This document shows positions 5,417 to 37,636 of a stretch of 64,000 bases of DNA, one piece after another (within the stretch, counting starts at the first letter, position 1; every line of letters starts with the position of its first letter). The position numbers were made by a program, and so were the translations under genes. Source of the stretch: Bacillota bacterium. GTDB lineage: Bacteria; Bacillota; SHA-98; Ch115. The DNA lies in the NCBI GenBank assembly GCA_013178415.1, contig JABLXA010000014.1, positions 1 through 64,000 of the forward strand, written 5' to 3'. The notes beneath the pieces are model-generated. The model made no database searches, was not told where the DNA came from, and saw only the letters and a list, made by a program, of their open reading frames with translations.

Positions 5417-6565
5417 ATGGAGCAATTGCGAATTGGAGTAATAGGGGTCAGTGGTCGTGGTCGCTTGGCTGATCATTGGCACAATCCAGGCGGAAGATCT
5501 GTTGTAGTGGCGGGTGCAGACATTAACGAAAAGTACTTGAAGGAATTCAAGGAGCGCTACGGAGATTCGGTTTTTGTGACGACTGATTATCGCCGGCTTC
5601 TTGAAAGACCTGATGTGGATGCAGTACTCGTCTCATCGCCGGATTTCTGTCATGAGGAGCATGCGGTGGCCGCGCTTGAGGCTGGTAAGCATGTCTATTG
5701 CGAGAAACCCCTTGCAATTACAGTGGAGGGCTGCGATCGAATCCTCAAGGCCTGGCGAGCCTCCGGAAGGAAGCTCATGGTAGGATTTAACATGCGATAT
5801 ATGAATATGTTCCGAACGATGAAAGAAATCGTTGATTCAGGGGCGATCGGGGAGATCAAGGCCGTATGGGTCCGTCATTTTGTGGGGCATGGCGGGGACT
5901 TCTACTATCACGATTGGCACGCCATGCGCCGCAATACTACTTCGCTTCTCCTCCAGAAAGGTTCTCATGACATAGATATCATACACTGGATCTCTGGTGC
6001 GTACGGCAAGCGGGTTGCAGCCTTTGGCGGCCTTGATTTCTTTGGTGGAGATAAGCCCAATGACCTGGTGTGCCCCACTTGCCCCGAGCGGCGTACCTGC
6101 CCGGATCCGGCCAGGGCCGACACTCGTATTCAATGTGCTTTCCGCAAGGAAGTGGATGTAGAAGATAATAATGTGGTCATCATGGAGCTGGAAAATGGGA
6201 TAAAGGCTTCGTATCTCCAGTGCCATTTCACGCCAGATTACCACCGCAACTATACCTTCATCGGGACAGAAGGAAGGATCGAGAATTCCGAACCCGAAGG
6301 CAAGGTCTGGGTGAAGACCAGGGATTCGCATGACTGGAAGGCCCTTGCCAATCGCACCTATGAGGTCAAACCCGCTGTCGGAGGCCATGGCGGCGGTGAT
6401 CCTGTCGCCTGTGAGGATTTCCTGGATATGATTCTGGAAGGCAAAGAGCCTGTAGCAACGCCAATCGCTGGGAGAATGAGCGTTGCTGTAGGGTGCGCTG
6501 CCGCCGAATCGATGCGCTCAGGCGGCAAGGTGGTTGAGGTGGCTCCGCTGCCTGATCTAGGTTAG
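5417..6565 (+). CDS. Gfo/Idh/MocA family dehydrogenase (3) with a four-cysteine insert
   Basis: This is a longer paralogue (382 residues). The Rossmann turn GVSGRGR is at 8-14 and YCEKPLA at 94-100. The substrate-domain HDIDIIHW stretch is at 184-191. Unlike its two neighbours it has cysteines at 219, 222, 228 and 240 (CPTCPERRTC and a later Cys) in a loop. They are spaced like a structural zinc or possibly Fe-S site. Related long Gfo/Idh proteins with such a cysteine loop exist; their metal content is not something I can state. It starts at ATG after AGGAGGCATGAAAGC. The transporter genes follow after 129 bases. Confidence 0.88.
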   Translation: MEQLRIGVIGVSGRGRLADHWHNPGGRSVVVAGADINEKYLKEFKERYGDSVFVTTDYRRLLERPDVDAVLVSSPDFCHEEHAVAALEAGKHVYCEKPLAITVEGCDRILKAWRASGRKLMVGFNMRYMNMFRTMKEIVDSGAIGEIKAVWVRHFVGHGGDFYYHDWHAMRRNTTSLLLQKGSHDIDIIHWISGAYGKRVAAFGGLDFFGGDKPNDLVCPTCPERRTCPDPARADTRIQCAFRKEVDVEDNNVVIMELENGIKASYLQCHFTPDYHRNYTFIGTEGRIENSEPEGKVWVKTRDSHDWKALANRTYEVKPAVGGHGGGDPVACEDFLDMILEGKEPVATPIAGRMSVAVGCAAAESMRSGGKVVEVAPLPDLG

Positions 6566-6577
6566 AAGTTGCAGATT

Positions 6578-6663
6578 CCGGTCGCCTCGTCTTTACCTGG
6601 TACGCTCTAATCGGATACTAGATGACCGCTGGGATGCAAGGAAATTCGTCTGGAGGCGACCGG
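6578..6663. repeat. 11-bp inverted repeat in the dehydrogenase-transporter gap
   Basis: CCGGTCGCCTC (6578-6588) and its exact reverse complement GAGGCGACCGG (6653-6663) flank 64 bases directly before the first permease gene. It could fold in RNA as a long hairpin sequestering the region, or be a DNA looping site. Confidence 0.6.
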
Positions 6664-6694
6664 TGTCCATATCGCACCATCGGGGGTGATCAAC

Positions 6695-7591
6695 GTGGCA
6701 CGGAAGTATTCTTTGCAGAAAAATAAAAGGTTTTTAGGATATGCGTTTACTTCGCCTTGGATCTTGGGGTTCCTTATGTTCACTTTATATCCTTTTGCGG
6801 CATCGATCTATTATAGTCTCACGGACTATAGTGTCTTGAATGCCCCAGAGTTTGTAGGAGTCGGAAATTATGTGACCCTCTTTAGTAAAGACCCTTTGTT
6901 TTGGAAGTCGCTTTATAATACTCTGTACTATGCAGTTATCTCCCTGCCACTACAAATATTAGTTGCGCTGGGACTAGCTACTTTACTGAACCAGCGAGTT
7001 AGGGGACTGGCAGTTTTCAGAACCATTTTCTACCTTCCTTCTATAGTGCCGATTGTTGGCGCCTCAATTGTATGGATGTGGCTTCTAAATCCACAATATG
7101 GCATTATCAATGGAATTCTCTATGCTCTCGGTATCAACGGTCCTGGGTGGATCACCGACCCCGTCTGGTCTAAACCCTCACTGATCATAATGAGCCTGTG
7201 GGGCGTAGGAGGATCCATGATAATATACCTTGCCGCCTTGCAGGATGTACCTGTCCAATTATATGAGGCCTCGGAACTAGATGGGGCAAGCCCTTTGCAT
7301 AAGTTCAGGCATGTTACACTGCCAATGATTTCTCCAGCAATATTCTTCCAATTAGTGATGGGGTTGATCGGGGCTCTTCAATATTTCACTCAGGCTTATG
7401 TAATGACTCAGGGCGGCCCTGCTGACTCGACACTTTTCTATTCACTATATCTATATAACAATGCTTTCCGGTACTTCAAAATGGGGTATGCCTCTGCCAT
7501 GGCATGGATTTTGTTTATTATCATCTTGGTGTTGACTCTCTTGGTGTTCAGGACTTCGCGCAGCTGGGTTTATTACGCTGGTGGGAGGTGA
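6695..7591 (+). CDS. Sugar ABC transporter permease, MalF/UgpA type
   Basis: An integral membrane permease with six predicted helices; the first helix is near residues 15-35. The cytoplasmic EAA loop is EASELDGASPLHKFRHVTLP, which docks the ATPase. The GTG at 6695 is preferred because GGGGGTGAT lies about five bases before it; an in-frame GTG at 6686 overlaps that site. With the binding protein and second permease downstream it forms a CUT1-type importer for oligosaccharides, polyols or glycerol phosphate. No ATP-binding gene occurs in this locus, so a shared MsmX/UgpC-type ATPase elsewhere is expected. Confidence 0.9.
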   Translation: MARKYSLQKNKRFLGYAFTSPWILGFLMFTLYPFAASIYYSLTDYSVLNAPEFVGVGNYVTLFSKDPLFWKSLYNTLYYAVISLPLQILVALGLATLLNQRVRGLAVFRTIFYLPSIVPIVGASIVWMWLLNPQYGIINGILYALGINGPGWITDPVWSKPSLIIMSLWGVGGSMIIYLAALQDVPVQLYEASELDGASPLHKFRHVTLPMISPAIFFQLVMGLIGALQYFTQAYVMTQGGPADSTLFYSLYLYNNAFRYFKMGYASAMAWILFIIILVLTLLVFRTSRSWVYYAGGR

Positions 7592-9984: not shown

Positions 9985-11046
9985 TTGTACAAGGAGACAA
10001 TGACACCGCGAGAACGCTGGCTGGCTGTGCTTACCCGCCATAAGCCCGATCGTGTTCCAATGGATTACCGAGCCACAGATGAAGCGACTGCCAGGTTGAT
10101 GAGGTACCTTGGTTGTTCGGATTTGGATGCCCTCTTTAGGCAGTTGCATATCGACCAGCCGGTGGTGGTAAACCCGGAATATATTGGGCCGTCAATTCCT
10201 GATGATACCGACATCTATGGTTGTCGTTATAGGGATGTGTCATACGGGATGGGCTCTTACAGGGAATGTGTTTACCATCCGCTTGCAGAGTATAAGACAG
10301 TTGACGAAATAAAGCTAAATTACAGATGGCCGAGCCCAGATTGGTATGACTATTCGGTCATCCCCAAACAGATAAGGGGCAAGGAGGATCGTCCAATTCA
10401 GGGTGGGGGCTCGGAACCTTTTTTGATATATAAATATCTACGTGGAGATGAACAGGCTTTTATTGATCTAATTGAAAATCCTGAGATCGTCCATTATTGC
10501 CTTGATAAACTCTTTAATTTCTGCTATGAGAACACCCTTCGAATCTATGAGCAGATTCCAGGGATGGTACTGATAACCTATGTAGCCGAAGACATGGGGT
10601 CTGAAAGTGACCTAATGTATTCGCCTGCGCATATTCGGGAGTTTTTCATCCCGCGCATGAAACGCATGATTGACCTCGTTCACCAGGCTGGTGCTTTTGC
10701 GTTCCATCATAATGACGGGGCTATCCGTAAGATTATTCCTGATATGATTGAAGCTGGGATAGACGTCCTAGATCCGGTTCAATGGAAGTGCAAGGGAATG
10801 GATCGTAGGGCATTAAAACATGATTTTGGTGATAGGCTAATTTTCCATGGAGGTGTGGACAATCAATATACACTAGCGTTTGGCACTATAGACGAGGTAC
10901 GGCAAGAGGTACTGGATAACCTCGGCATCCTGGGTGAGGGAGGGGGATATATTCTAGCTCCCTGCCATAATATTCAAGCCGTTAGCCCGCCGGAGAATAT
11001 TGTAGAGATGTATAAGATCGGATATGAATATGGATGGACTCCGTAG
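9985..11046 (+). CDS. Uroporphyrinogen decarboxylase (URO-D) family protein
   Basis: A 353-residue TIM-barrel protein of the URO-D/MtaA/CmuA superfamily. It starts TTG with AGGAGGG 11 bases upstream; an in-frame ATG at 10000 with AAGGAG is an alternative. The N-terminal PRERWLAVLTRHKPDRVP is typical of the non-heme branch found in carbohydrate loci. Metal or substrate residues probably include the FHHND histidines and the Cys/His of LAPCHNI. No corrinoid protein or heme gene is nearby, so heme synthesis and corrinoid methyl transfer are both unlikely. Such proteins recur beside Gfo/Idh and ABC sugar genes, but their reaction is unknown. Confidence 0.82.
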   Translation: MYKETMTPRERWLAVLTRHKPDRVPMDYRATDEATARLMRYLGCSDLDALFRQLHIDQPVVVNPEYIGPSIPDDTDIYGCRYRDVSYGMGSYRECVYHPLAEYKTVDEIKLNYRWPSPDWYDYSVIPKQIRGKEDRPIQGGGSEPFLIYKYLRGDEQAFIDLIENPEIVHYCLDKLFNFCYENTLRIYEQIPGMVLITYVAEDMGSESDLMYSPAHIREFFIPRMKRMIDLVHQAGAFAFHHNDGAIRKIIPDMIEAGIDVLDPVQWKCKGMDRRALKHDFGDRLIFHGGVDNQYTLAFGTIDEVRQEVLDNLGILGEGGGYILAPCHNIQAVSPPENIVEMYKIGYEYGWTP

Positions 11047-32729: not shown

Positions 32730-32757
32730 ACATATTGATCCCCCCTGGCATATTGTA
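32730..32757 (+). promoter_or_regulatory. Candidate mother-cell (SigK/SigE-like) promoter
   Basis: CATATTGTA (32749-32757) fits the CATA-N3-TA -10 element of SigK, and AC lies 17 bases upstream. It is about 55 bases before the TasA/camelysin-like gene. The motif is short, so chance is possible. Confidence 0.4.
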
Positions 32758-32810
32758 TATTCCAGCAGGACGATTCATGTAACGCTGTCCTGCCAGCTAG
32801 GGGGGATACA

Positions 32811-33272
32811 ATGCCTTCATTTACCTTTACCAATGATGCAGCCAACACAGGCAACCAGGTGCTTACTGCTACCGTAAGTGTAGCCATATCACCAGAAAGT
32901 GCGGTACTGGCTTCACCTGCGCTGCTTCCGGGCGCTTCAGTGGTAGGCACTGTCGCAGTATCAAATGCCGGCGATGTGAATTGCCTGTATTTCATATCAG
33001 CAAACTGGGCGGCAGCTGGAACGACCACGGCGAGCATGGCCCAGATCCTGGCGGGTTCATTGAATGTAAGCGTTGTAGCGAGCCCGCCGACCACGACAAT
33101 ATATACAGGAGCCTTGACCGGCCTCGTTGACCAGCCGTCGGGCGGGCAATCGTTGCCGCTCGGCTCGGTGCAGGAGGCAACCTTTACTTTGGCCCTATCA
33201 CCTGATGCAGGAAACCTTGTTCAGAACCAGGATCTCTCGATAGACTTCATCTTCGTTGCGACCCAGGCATAA
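32811..33272 (+). CDS. TasA/camelysin-like fibre or surface protein without signal peptide
   Basis: A 153-residue beta-rich protein, low in charge and rich in Ala, Ser, Thr and Val. The middle and end fit the TasA/CalY (camelysin) fold: LLPGASVVGTVAVSNAGDVN, YTGALTGL, then TFTLALSPDAGN and DFIFVATQA. Typical members have an N-terminal signal peptide; this one starts directly in the fold. The strong AGGGGGGAT site fixes the ATG. Synthesis without export would suit a spore-coat or exosporium protein made in the mother cell. The following genes encode glycosyltransferases, a SPOCS-like protein and a methyltransferase, so it could be their acceptor. That role is inference. Confidence 0.65.
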   Translation: MPSFTFTNDAANTGNQVLTATVSVAISPESAVLASPALLPGASVVGTVAVSNAGDVNCLYFISANWAAAGTTTASMAQILAGSLNVSVVASPPTTTIYTGALTGLVDQPSGGQSLPLGSVQEATFTLALSPDAGNLVQNQDLSIDFIFVATQA

Positions 33273-33409
33273 TCTGGCACTACTTCCCGTAAAGCGAATG
33301 TCGCCCTCCGAGAATATTCCGAGAATATCATATAGTTGCCGCAAGAAATCATGGGGGCGGGGCAGATCTTTGGATCCCTCGCCCCTTGTTTCGGAAAGGG
33401 GAAATCGTC

Positions 33410-35374
33410 GTGAAAGAAAGGGTTACGGCCATGATGGTGGTGAGGAATGAAGCCAGTAGATACCTGCGCCAGGTGCTTGACGATTTAACTGCATGGGTTG
33501 ATGACATCGTCATCCTGGATGACGCATCAGATGATTCTACCGCCGATCTATGCAGGAGCTATGATAAAATCATAAAATATGAGCGAAATCCTTCGCCTCT
33601 TTTCATAGAGCATGAGGGGAGATTGAGGGCCAAATTGTGGAGTATGGTGGAAAGCGTCAGCCCTCAGTGGATCCTGGCAATAGATGCGGACGAGATCTTC
33701 GAGAACCGAATCAGAAACGAAATTCGCCCTCTTATTGATCAATCATCATATGATGCCGTTGAATTCAGACTTTTCGATTTCTGGGGCTCATTTGAATATT
33801 ACCGTATAGATGGTGAATGGAATCCGTGGTCGCGTTTCGTGCGACTCCTGGTAAGATATATGCCGGGCAAGCCATGCACATGGCCTGATCTTCCGATTCA
33901 TTGTGGGCGATGGCCCCTTGAGTATAGAGGACCTCTCTTGACGTTCCATTCTGATATCAGGGTCAAGCATCTGGGATGGGTGAGGGCCGAGGATCACCGG
34001 GCCAAGTATGAACTCTACCGTGCCAAAGAGATCGCGCTACGTGGGTCGCCTTCAAAACATACTGAAAGCATATTGGCGCCGCCTGAGGAAATAAAGCTGG
34101 AGAAATGGGTTGATTCAAAGCCCTTGACTTATTCGTTATCATGGCATCCGGACACTTCAGGATGTCCAGCAGTCGAAAAAGGCGAAAATGGGGTATTGCA
34201 TGAAGTCTTGGGCACGTCCGGAGATAGCGTCCTTACCACCCACGCAACGAAATCCCGCCTCAGAAGACGGGTAGGCATTCTGACGACAAATCACTTCAGC
34301 CCGGATGGCAGTCGTGTTGTGTATGGTGGGGCGGAACGTTATGGTATTGAGCTCACTAGGCTTCTACTCGATATGGGTTTCAGTGTTGAATGGTGGCAGG
34401 CTGGGTCGGGATGGCAACGCGAACTCCTGCCGGGGGTGTTTGTTCATTCCATCTCCGAAGGGGACGTCCAGTTTCAAACAGCGCCTCGTCTAAATCATAC
34501 ATTCCATGAACGGGCTACAGGAATTGACTACGCTATATACTTCGTAACTTTCCTCGCCTATCCATACGCGCTGGAGAAGAGCATAAGCATATCTCATGGC
34601 ATCTACTGGGATTATCCCACCTTTGAATCCCTTCTGGGGTCGCGGGAAGGGCGTCATGAATGGAAGAGGCGGCTATTTCTGGCGTTATCAGCTGTCAGGA
34701 AGGTGGTCTCTGTGGACACAGCCACCATCCACTGGATAAATGCCACATGGCCAGGTTTATATGAGAAGCTAACTTACATCCCAAACTTCGTAGACCTGCC
34801 AGCCTATGACATGCTCCCTGACCCGGAGCCCCGGGACCAGGTCCGCGTGATCTTTCCGCGCCGGCTTACCTCGGTGCGTGGCGTGAATGAAGCAGCTAAG
34901 GCAGCCGAGATCCTCAGCGCTGAATATGATAATGTGGAGTTTCATTTCGTCGGCCGGGCGCATGATGATATATTAGAGAACCACATGATCAGGTGGGCAA
35001 GCAATAATCCAAAGATATATTACTATTGGCGACCGCCTCATCTCATGCCCTGGACTTACAAAAACATGGATATCGCCTTGATTCCGTCCAAATCTACAGA
35101 GGGGACGTCTCTATCCTGTCTTGAGGCCATGGGGGCCGGGTGTGCCATCATCGCCGGCTATACAGGGGGCCTATCCGACCTCATCATAGATGGATATAAT
35201 GGGCGGCTTATAAAGCCGACCTTTTCTAAACTTGTAGAAACACTTGCCGAATTGATCGAAAACCGGGAAGAACGTATCAGTCTTGGGAAGGCGGCGCATG
35301 ATGTAGCCTTTGCCTTTACCCTTGATATCTGGCGAAGGCGGTGGATAAGGGAGATAAGAGAGGTATTCAATTGA
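33410..35374 (+). CDS. Bifunctional GT2-GT4 glycosyltransferase
   Basis: About 654 residues with two catalytic folds. Residues 1-240 form a GT-A family 2 domain: MMVVRNEAS, LDDASDDST, and the DxD-like AIDADEIFE. Residues about 286-654 form a GT-B family 4 domain. It has ERYGIELTRLLLDMGFSVEWW, a phosphate-binding FPRRLTSVRGV stretch and the E-x7-E motif STEGTSLSCLEAMGAG. The GTG at 33410 is favoured by GAAAGGGGAAA; an in-frame TTG lies at 33386. Such fusions can add two successive sugars. It is cytoplasmic with no membrane helix, and nine bases separate it from the next gene. Confidence 0.9.
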   Translation: MKERVTAMMVVRNEASRYLRQVLDDLTAWVDDIVILDDASDDSTADLCRSYDKIIKYERNPSPLFIEHEGRLRAKLWSMVESVSPQWILAIDADEIFENRIRNEIRPLIDQSSYDAVEFRLFDFWGSFEYYRIDGEWNPWSRFVRLLVRYMPGKPCTWPDLPIHCGRWPLEYRGPLLTFHSDIRVKHLGWVRAEDHRAKYELYRAKEIALRGSPSKHTESILAPPEEIKLEKWVDSKPLTYSLSWHPDTSGCPAVEKGENGVLHEVLGTSGDSVLTTHATKSRLRRRVGILTTNHFSPDGSRVVYGGAERYGIELTRLLLDMGFSVEWWQAGSGWQRELLPGVFVHSISEGDVQFQTAPRLNHTFHERATGIDYAIYFVTFLAYPYALEKSISISHGIYWDYPTFESLLGSREGRHEWKRRLFLALSAVRKVVSVDTATIHWINATWPGLYEKLTYIPNFVDLPAYDMLPDPEPRDQVRVIFPRRLTSVRGVNEAAKAAEILSAEYDNVEFHFVGRAHDDILENHMIRWASNNPKIYYYWRPPHLMPWTYKNMDIALIPSKSTEGTSLSCLEAMGAGCAIIAGYTGGLSDLIIDGYNGRLIKPTFSKLVETLAELIENREERISLGKAAHDVAFAFTLDIWRRRWIREIREVFN

Positions 35375-35383
35375 TTTGGGAAG

Positions 35384-35902
35384 ATGTTCACATACATTGC
35401 CAGGAATGTGGGAAATCTCATAAGGCCCAGGATCAAACCCCCGGAAATGATGAAAGTCCTGGTGGAGACAGATGTGATAATCGGGCGGGGAAAGGGCACA
35501 ACATGGTTCTCATCTTTACTGGATGCCATTCCTTATAGATCGCCCGTCAAGGAGATAGGGGCTTCATTTGCGGTTTGTTCCCGCAGTTTGGTGCCTCTGA
35601 AAACTTCCGGAGGCACCGGGATCGTAATCTCCGGGGAATTGGCCATTGAGATCTTCTGGGTACGCCCTGATGGAATCCTGGCCTTCACCCGTTCATTGAT
35701 ACCCCTTTCCTTTATGATGGAATTACCAGATGTGGTTTTTCATAGGCGTGCCGACGCCTCGGTGGATGCCTTCGTTGTGCCGGTATGGTGGTATAGTGAT
35801 CGAGGCTTTGTTTTTGGAGTTCAGATTGATCTGGATGCCATTGTGACAATACATAAGGAGATAGTGGTTTTGGTGCCATATGGGGCGTGCGCCCCATTAT
35901 GA
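35384..35902 (+). CDS. SPOCS (DUF3794)-like protein
   Basis: A 172-residue protein without signal peptide. It fits the SPOCS/DUF3794 pattern found in spore-coat and SafA-associated proteins: PVKEIGASFAV, a GIVISGELAIEIFWVRPDG strand pair, LIPLSFMMELPD, then DAFVVPVWWY. The match is by pattern, not alignment, so confidence is moderate. The ATG has a poor ribosome site; it may rely on coupling to the gene nine bases upstream. A SPOCS domain here supports a spore-envelope role for the whole cluster. Confidence 0.6.
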   Translation: MFTYIARNVGNLIRPRIKPPEMMKVLVETDVIIGRGKGTTWFSSLLDAIPYRSPVKEIGASFAVCSRSLVPLKTSGGTGIVISGELAIEIFWVRPDGILAFTRSLIPLSFMMELPDVVFHRRADASVDAFVVPVWWYSDRGFVFGVQIDLDAIVTIHKEIVVLVPYGACAPL

Positions 35903-35915
35903 GGAGGTATTGCTG

Positions 35916-37040
35916 GTGCCCGCCATTCTATATTTGCCATGTTTTGACTATTTCCATCACAGGCAAAGGCCACAATCCCTGCTCTGGGAGCTTTCAAAAC
36001 AGGGATTTCAGGTAATCTATTGCCAGCCTACTTCATATGCGACTCGTGCTGCTGAATGGGCCGGCAGGCATATATGGCCTGCGGGCGAGAAGTATCAACC
36101 TCCCGGGCCTCTGATTCCCCTAACAGACAATTTCATTATTTGTACCGATGTCGCGGCAGTCAAGGACCTCAGGCCTGACGTAATGTGGCTTACGCATGGG
36201 CCATATGCTGAATCTGTGGTCGACTTCAATCCAAAGGTGGTAGTGAGCGACTTTGCTGACGTATGTAAAGAAGAATTTGAAGAATTCGCGCCCTTTGAGA
36301 CTGCTAAACTCTCATGCGCAGATGTGGCCATAGCTGCTTCAAAGGCCATCTATGATGATATAAGCCAGAGGCATCCAAATGCTCACTTGGTTCCTAATGC
36401 GGCGGACTACAGGCTCTTTCGCATGGCATGGGATCCATCGTATAACCTCCCGGTTCCTTTTGAGATCTCAACAATCCTCGGCATTCAGAATCCTGTTCCC
36501 GGCAGCGCCAGGGTTACCTCGAAGAAGCTCATCGCCTTCTGGGGGGCCATCACAACCTGGGTTGACCTGGACCTGGTGATCAGGATAGCCGCAAGGAAAC
36601 CTGCATGGCACTTCGTGTTTATAGGCTCTATAGGTCTCCCGATGAGCATTCTTCCCCGCCTATCTAATATTACATTCCTGGGGGATCGCGATCACTTGAG
36701 CCTGCCTTTCTACGCCAGATGGTTTGATGCCGCCATTATTCCTTTTGAGGTCCGTGAAGTTACCCGCAGTGCCTGTCCGATAAAGGCGTATGAATACCTT
36801 GCCTGCGGCCTGCCGGTTGTATCAACTGACTTGCCTGAAATTCGCGGTTTGGGCGATATAAAGATCATAGATTCTAGCAGTGGTCAGGTTGAAGGATTTA
36901 TTGATGCATTGGAATGGGCCCTCTCTCAAAGCCGGGACCCTGACGCGAAACGGCTGAGGGCAGAGGCGGTAAAAGATGAGACGTGGGAAAACCGAGCGAA
37001 GATGGTAAAGGACCTGATCAGTGAATATATCGAAATGTAG
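35916..37040 (+). CDS. GT-B glycosyltransferase (GT4-like)
   Basis: A protein of 374 residues from the GTG at 35916. GAGGAGGT sits seven bases before that codon and the family opening ILYLPCFDYFHHRQRPQSLL follows at once. The acceptor-side fold is followed by a nucleotide-sugar half with KLIAFWGAI, FLGDRDHL and SACPIKAYEYLACGLPVVST, the region binding the diphosphate. It is cytoplasmic. It is 13 bases after the SPOCS-like gene and 29 before the methyltransferase, so the genes form one operon. Donor and acceptor are unknown. Confidence 0.85.
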   Translation: MPAILYLPCFDYFHHRQRPQSLLWELSKQGFQVIYCQPTSYATRAAEWAGRHIWPAGEKYQPPGPLIPLTDNFIICTDVAAVKDLRPDVMWLTHGPYAESVVDFNPKVVVSDFADVCKEEFEEFAPFETAKLSCADVAIAASKAIYDDISQRHPNAHLVPNAADYRLFRMAWDPSYNLPVPFEISTILGIQNPVPGSARVTSKKLIAFWGAITTWVDLDLVIRIAARKPAWHFVFIGSIGLPMSILPRLSNITFLGDRDHLSLPFYARWFDAAIIPFEVREVTRSACPIKAYEYLACGLPVVSTDLPEIRGLGDIKIIDSSSGQVEGFIDALEWALSQSRDPDAKRLRAEAVKDETWENRAKMVKDLISEYIEM

Positions 37041-37069
37041 ATCTCTCATGAGCAAAAGGGGGGTATCTT

Positions 37070-37636
37070 ATGCCTTTACTTCAACAAGATTCCATGTGTA
37101 TCGGCAAGGTGAGGGGAGACCTCCCGCAAGAAGGCATGACCAGGATCATCATCGGGAGGCTTCTGTGCATCCCGGGTATTGAGAGGATACTGGATGTTGG
37201 CTGTGGGGATGGCTATGCGCTTGAACTATTTCGATCTGCAGGCAAGGATGCCATGGGTATCACATTGAATCAAGCCGGGGTGGATGCCTGCGTAGAGCGT
37301 GGCCTGCTCGCCATAAGGGGCGATGCCCACGATCTTGATTCAATATTCTGCCGCGAATTTGATCTCATCTATTGCCGGCAATCGCTAGAACACTTTTACA
37401 GCCCTTTCATCGCGCTTATCTCTATGAATCGGGCCATCAGGTTTGACAAGTTCCTTTTTGTAAGCCTGCCAGATGAATCATGGATCGAAGCCGATGATCA
37501 CCTATATGTACTGAACTTCAGACAAATGACGAGTCTTCTTCACAAGAGCGGGTTTAAACCTGTACTGCTATGGGAAGAGAGATTTGGGGGCCTCGTGGAC
37601 AGGTGTTTCCTGGCACGGAAAATCAATGAATTGTAA
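37070..37636 (+). CDS. Class I SAM-dependent methyltransferase
   Basis: A 188-residue small methyltransferase. The SAM loop is ILDVGCGDGYALELF, followed by GDAHDLDSI, FDLIYCRQSLEHF (motif IV/V region) and FVSLPDESWIEADDH. This is the UbiE/Methyltransf_11 fold. It is the last gene of the glycosyltransferase cluster. It could methylate a sugar of the assembled glycan, as occurs on spore-surface glycans of Bacillus (anthrose and O-methyl-rhamnose), or the protein itself. AAAAGGGGGG precedes the ATG. Confidence 0.88.
   Translation: MPLLQQDSMCIGKVRGDLPQEGMTRIIIGRLLCIPGIERILDVGCGDGYALELFRSAGKDAMGITLNQAGVDACVERGLLAIRGDAHDLDSIFCREFDLIYCRQSLEHFYSPFIALISMNRAIRFDKFLFVSLPDESWIEADDHLYVLNFRQMTSLLHKSGFKPVLLWEERFGGLVDRCFLARKINEL

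Follow-up and report, generated by a model that had tools for sequence, protein, structure and literature searches.

The closest described counterparts of the locus analysed here are the TasA/camelysin proteins of Bacillus (TasA, camelysin or CalY, and BsaA) and their partner TapA. Members of this family have a jelly-roll fold, seen in the solved relatives 8aur and 5of2, and a disordered N-terminal tail; in B. subtilis, the N-terminus of TapA resembles the TasA donor strand, and TapA is thought to start the fibre (PMC9674648). Bacterial spores carry other surface structures. The Ena and F-ENA appendages of Bacillus, Paenibacillus and some Clostridia consist of small, mother-cell-made, all-beta subunits with N-terminal linkers and dedicated anchors, and clostridial F-ENA-3 is possibly O-glycosylated (PMC11952670). 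BclA is paired with dedicated glycosyltransferases such as C. difficile SgtA, which puts O-GlcNAc on threonine (PMC7157674), and the SPOCS-domain proteins SpoVID, CotE and SipL form a coat network around SpoIVA (PMC10659427). Moorella thermoacetica spores have a large, loose exosporium and were reported to be free of hair-like projections; the known exosporium morphogenetic proteins were not found in the genome of this species, from which the authors of that work drew the conclusion that other proteins must make up its exosporium (PMC8745062).

The cluster described here lies in a 64,000-nucleotide stretch of a Bacillota genome (the window). Its first gene shares with the TasA/camelysin family the jelly-roll fold, the disordered N-terminal tail and, by way of secreted relatives, a distant sequence homology, and in many families its partner has an N-terminus resembling its own, as TapA does. 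Unlike TasA and camelysin, the gene 1 product has no signal peptide and almost no Lys or Arg, and its gene is predicted to be under SigK-type rather than SinR-type control. Where TasA has SipW and TapA, its neighbours are a GT2/GT4 glycosyltransferase pair and a SPOCS protein. The building plan of Ena and F-ENA resembles the one proposed here, but the fold and family of gene 1 are different, the cluster has no collagen-like anchor, and neither DUF3992 nor DUF4183 was matched by Pfam in the window protein and 23 relatives. BclA is a spore-surface protein with a dedicated glycosyltransferase, as is proposed here, whereas gene 1 encodes a TasA fold, sits in a different gene order, and specifies no collagen-like GXY repeats. 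Gene 3 shares the SPOCS domain of SipL, SpoVID and CotE by profile comparison, but has a single divergent domain in a protein of 172 residues with, in many families, a tail like that of the TasA-like protein. We found no description of the gene 1 family in the open-access literature searched.

Gene layout and the TasA-like protein

The five open reading frames of the original prediction are all present on the forward strand. Gene 1 (32811-33272) encodes a 153-residue TasA-fold protein, gene 2 (33410-35374) a fused glycosyltransferase with an N-terminal GT2 and a C-terminal GT4 domain, gene 3 (35384-35902) a small SPOCS-domain protein, gene 4 (35916-37040) a second, TuaH-like GT4 glycosyltransferase, and gene 5 (37070-37636) a MetW-like class-I SAM methyltransferase. 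For gene 2, GTG 33410 is a better start than the TTG at 33386 given by the ORF tool, and for gene 4, GTG 35916, which is preceded by GAGGAGGT and agrees with the start of a relative, is better than the tool's 35880. Genes 2 and 3 and genes 3 and 4 almost abut, and 29 bases separate gene 4 from gene 5. Between genes 1 and 2, a forward-strand RNA hairpin at 33353-33386 (fold of 33330-33409, -31.3 kcal/mol, z -2.2) is a possible attenuator that could allow the gene 1 product to be made in excess over the enzymes. Another hairpin, visible in the 5' leader of gene 1, was set aside, as it is no more stable than shuffles (z -0.5) and inconsistent across loci. An Rfam scan and a search for phage and plasmid origin returned no matches, and the window's nearest named relatives are MAGs of uncultured Bacillota.

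Curated families do not name genes 1 and 3, which fall below cut-off or are absent in Pfam and NCBIfam, and structure and profile tests were used instead. The gene 1 product scores below threshold against the Pfam camelysin family PF12389 (E 0.19, 12 bits against a cut-off of 22.5); of 23 family members, 8 reach E<=0.1 with this model, the best at 9e-5. An AlphaFold2 model built from 11 family members (pLDDT 82) is a jelly-roll, or beta-sandwich, with a disordered tail at residues 1-17. Its top Foldseek match in the PDB is the TasA fibre 8aur (E 1.6e-6, TM 0.68). An archaeal bundling pilus comes next, and TasA crystal structures are among the further matches; a sequence search of the PDB with the TasA-like profile yielded one chance match only. 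The TasA/camelysin-like fold that had been proposed for the 153-residue protein is therefore what structure prediction returns.

The proposed lack of a signal peptide is also borne out. We find no cleavable SipW-type signal peptide in the gene 1 product, and a longer form is not available, because ATG 32811 is the earliest possible start of the open frame and the L003 ortholog, too, can start at one position only. In other genomes, the family profile retrieves a second, weaker set of matches. These are ordinary camelysin/TasA proteins that carry SipW-like signal peptides for secretion and match PF12389 with E down to 6e-21. Since the mature N-terminus of one of these (FAYFTDTAANTGNTFTAGT) aligns with the start of the gene 1 product (MPSFTFTNDAANTGNQVLTATV), the family looks, at the level of sequence, like a TasA relative that begins at the point where the signal peptide would end. 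The gene 1 product has the fold but neither passes the Pfam cut-off nor carries a signal peptide, so that 'TasA-like' is the right term and 'a TasA' is not. Its composition is equally distinctive: it contains no Lys, Arg or His, and its relatives of about 153 residues contain 0-6 Lys+Arg, except for one paralog with 9. Among 595 neighbouring ORFs, Lys+Arg averages 11% and never falls below 4.4%. This near-absence of Lys and Arg suggests selection for protease resistance. With almost no trypsin sites (the M. thermoacetica protein would give one mid-size tryptic peptide, of 29 aa), the family would barely be detected by trypsin-based proteomics and, falling below database cut-offs as well, has possibly been overlooked.

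Spore-formers and SigK-type promoters

Among 398 genomes drawn from the phylum, 45 genomes in 20 families carry the gene 1 family (cut-off E<1e-25). All 45 encode SpoIVA, which is present in 336 of the 398 overall (hypergeometric P 3e-4, relatedness ignored), and none of the 62 SpoIVA-negative genomes has the family. The expectation that the cluster would accompany spo genes outside Bacillus has thus held, and an occurrence mainly in non-sporulating lineages was not seen. The window's own genome has SpoIVA and a SigK above the curated cut-off. In one positive genome (G028), the formate-tetrahydrofolate ligase agrees at all of 554 residues with PDB 4ioj, the Moorella thermoacetica enzyme, and the family includes this species. 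A few TasA-like copies are frameshifted or broken by N runs, namely those at 9997-10680 and 18504-19227 of L046 (G008:C63), where the cluster is duplicated, and at about 7497-7952 of L042 (G003:C9); these are either assembly errors or decaying copies.

Upstream of gene 1, positions 32730-32757 of the forward strand hold a SigK-type promoter element, AC-N17-CATATTGTA. The window by itself contains 5 SigK-like motifs per 64 kb against 2.1 expected, which is not clearly above chance. Judging the promoter from the window was rejected on this count, and because the count was unconvincing we compared the upstream regions of homologs, searching the 160 bases upstream for AC-N16/17-CATANNNTA. The motif precedes 15 of 40 gene 1 homologs, where shuffles predict 0.23. 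Of the 456 other genes in these loci, 5 have it upstream (Fisher P 3e-14, relatedness ignored). Motif-positive homologs are spread over 8 families, while most gene 1 relatives in the window's own class lack the strict motif. It is this comparison, rather than the window, that makes the predicted SigK-like promoter significant.

Glycosyltransferases and the SPOCS partner

Pfam identifies GT2 and GT4 domains in gene 2, in keeping with the two-domain enzyme that had been proposed, and the catalytic motifs conserved among its relatives, DAD in GT2 and E-x7-E in GT4, are present in it. Orthologs of one or both halves (identity roughly 44-81%) adjoin the TasA-like gene in 34 of 40 loci. In most families, the GT2 and GT4 are separate genes, sometimes flanking the TasA-like gene, and the fusion is limited to the window's closest relatives. 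Enzymes fused in this way usually act one after the other on a common substrate. In a comparison with solved structures, the GT2 half resembles GmaR (E 3e-6), which glycosylates flagellin in the Listeria cytosol. Ser and Thr together make up 15-31% of the TasA-like proteins linked to glycosyltransferases and 11-16% of those that are not (P 1.4e-4, from few independent lineages). The six loci without a linked pair (L052, L102, L103, L106, L107 and L111), whose proteins are the poorer in Ser and Thr, offer a natural comparison for the idea of glycosylation. M. thermoacetica spores are known to contain a glycosyltransferase, 'CotSA' (Q2RIR1), but by accession order its gene probably lies outside the cluster, and we do not use it as evidence.

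Gene 4 is indeed a second GT4 enzyme and gene 5 a methyltransferase by Pfam, but neither is a general member of the cluster: both occur patchily among relatives and appear as lineage-specific accessories. Of the predicted five-gene set, the conserved unit is the TasA-like gene, the GT2, the GT4 and a partner, in many cases a SPOCS protein, that shares the N-terminal motif of the TasA-like protein. Because genes 4 and 5 are not generally conserved, the case for a methylated glycan concerns the window's lineage only.

Gene 3 has no Pfam match as a single sequence, SPOCS falling below cut-off, and its relatives give weak SPOCS matches. A profile comparison with the Pfam-confirmed SPOCS repeats of the same genome, however, gives a probability of 98.6 (E 1e-15), against 0.7 for the TasA-like family as a negative control, and on this sequence profile we assign gene 3 a SPOCS domain. 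The SPOCS-like identity first proposed for it stands in this comparison; the AlphaFold2 model (pLDDT 82, with a disordered tail at residues 1-16) found nothing significant in the PDB. In several families, the SPOCS protein is replaced by an unrelated protein of 212-266 aa (MPFTAPSVANKGNLF...; L051, L053, L087-L089, L091-L093, L101 and L113), which has no Pfam match in the member tested and has only its N-terminal tail in common with other cluster proteins. Scanning 558 other ORFs for the N-terminal motif gave 10 matches, all of them proteins of TasA-like clusters. Scoring the partner N-termini with a matrix of the TasA-like N-terminus had yielded a weak signal, and we used a within-genome comparison instead. 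Here, the resemblance between partner and TasA-like N-termini has a median score above about 97.5% of control N-termini and exceeds all controls in 5 of 22 cases; in the window's own class it is weak. By analogy with TapA, the SPOCS protein may be both starter and anchor of a TasA-like polymer, with residues 1-17 of the modelled gene 1 product as a candidate donor strand.

SPOCS proteins and glycosyltransferases also meet elsewhere in the window's genome, where at 6631-16519 of L055 (G000:C6:66000-85999) two genes for large proteins with SPOCS repeats (PF12673, E 7e-45 and 1e-27) stand beside several GT2/GT4 genes, a candidate coat or crust glycan locus. Two genomes of the same order have an equivalent cluster, and in both a perfect SigK-type motif (ACATATC...CATATTATA) lies just 5' of the large SPOCS-repeat gene, at 12002-12029 of L057 and 11509-11536 of L058, each on the reverse strand.

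A candidate spore-surface protein and its alternatives

We lean towards an account in which gene 1 encodes a structural protein of the spore surface, made and glycosylated in the mother-cell cytosol and tethered by its SPOCS partner. Late in sporulation, SigK would turn on gene 1 in the mother cell and, because it has no signal peptide, the TasA-fold protein would stay in the mother-cell cytosol, the site where the forespore surface is exposed. The GT2 and then the GT4 would put a short O-glycan on its Ser and Thr residues, which in the window's lineage the further GT4 and the methyltransferase may extend and methylate. The disordered tail would act as a donor strand joining subunits, as in TasA, and the SPOCS protein, whose N-terminus is like that tail in many families, would supply the first donor strand and tie the polymer or sheet to the SpoIVA-based coat, the part proposed for TapA with TasA at the cell wall. 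Computation supports the fold, the missing signal peptide, the promoter type, the restriction to spore-formers, the linkage of the glycosyltransferase pair and the SPOCS homology; from these we infer the location on the spore, the glycosylation of the gene 1 product, its polymerisation, its anchoring and the methylation. The original prediction of a spore-surface glycoprotein set in a non-Bacillus lineage accordingly gains from the SpoIVA restriction, the SigK promoters and the dedicated glycosyltransferases, with glycosylation and spore location as its conjectural parts. The near-absence of Lys and Arg is a further hint of a surface protein. Against the account stand the scores of genes 1 and 3 below curated family cut-offs, the rarity of the strict SigK motif and the weak N-terminal resemblance in the window's own class, the SPOCS model's lack of a match in the PDB, the six loci without the glycosyltransferase pair and, as far as long appendages are concerned, the M. 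thermoacetica spores reported to be free of hair-like projections (PMC8745062).

TasA and camelysin relatives are mostly biofilm proteins, and most loci of the window's class lack the strict SigK motif, as would suit a cytosolic or lysis-released biofilm or cell-surface protein of vegetative cells; this seems very improbable given the family's absence from the 62 SpoIVA-negative genomes, the strong enrichment of SigK-type motifs in other families, the lack of a secretion signal and the SPOCS partner in the cluster. Alternatively, the TasA-like protein might be an unglycosylated scaffold of the coat or exosporium, and the glycosyltransferases might serve to make a polysaccharide of the spore surface or to add sugars to a different coat protein, for instance the SPOCS partner. 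The loci that lack the pair would be explained in this way, enzymes that build polysaccharides are similar to GT4 enzymes and to the TuaH-like gene 4, and the SPOCS-repeat locus of the same genome has several glycosyltransferases and no TasA-like gene. We nonetheless think it rather unlikely, as the GT2/GT4 pair accompanies the TasA-like gene in many families, whatever the order of the genes, Ser and Thr are more abundant where the pair is present, and no polymerase or flippase is visible in the window cluster.

The same protein, expressed in the same way, could form a flat shell, as an exosporium or outer-coat layer, through side-to-side contacts, its N-terminal tail serving for spore targeting only, and we regard this as a possibility of lesser weight than the account we favour. 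The large, loose and hairless exosporium of M. thermoacetica would suit a shell, as would the lack there of the exosporium morphogenetic proteins known from B. cereus, B. anthracis and C. difficile (PMC8745062), and an N-terminus common to unrelated partners is also what a targeting tag would look like. Against a shell, the nearest folds are those of the TasA fibre and the archaeal bundling pilus, for each of which donor-strand fibres have been described, and the gene 1 monomer model has a disordered tail. More tentatively, the donor-strand account extends to a further and structurally distinct class of endospore surface polymer. Here, a TasA-family protein diverted from secretion to the mother-cell cytosol when it lost its signal peptide would be glycosylated in that cytosol by a dedicated GT2/GT4 pair, assemble by donor-strand exchange and be nucleated on the coat by a SPOCS protein that mimics its N-terminus, and Moorella-type exosporia would have it as their principal shell or fibre protein.

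Whichever its form, the cluster, conserved in many anaerobic spore-formers, is a specific candidate for the exosporium of M. thermoacetica, a species with very heat-resistant spores, and it occurs in 19 other families. Because no hair-like projections have been seen on these spores, a sheet or very fine fibres would fit them better than long appendages. If the favoured account is true, assembly of the TasA type has found a second use within a cell, and the N-terminus shows the change from a secreted to a cytosolic protein. In L053 (G050), a 209-aa protein without a Pfam match (6231-6860) is encoded two genes upstream of the TasA-like cluster's GT2 gene and has its own SigK-type motif, which makes it another candidate spore-coat protein.
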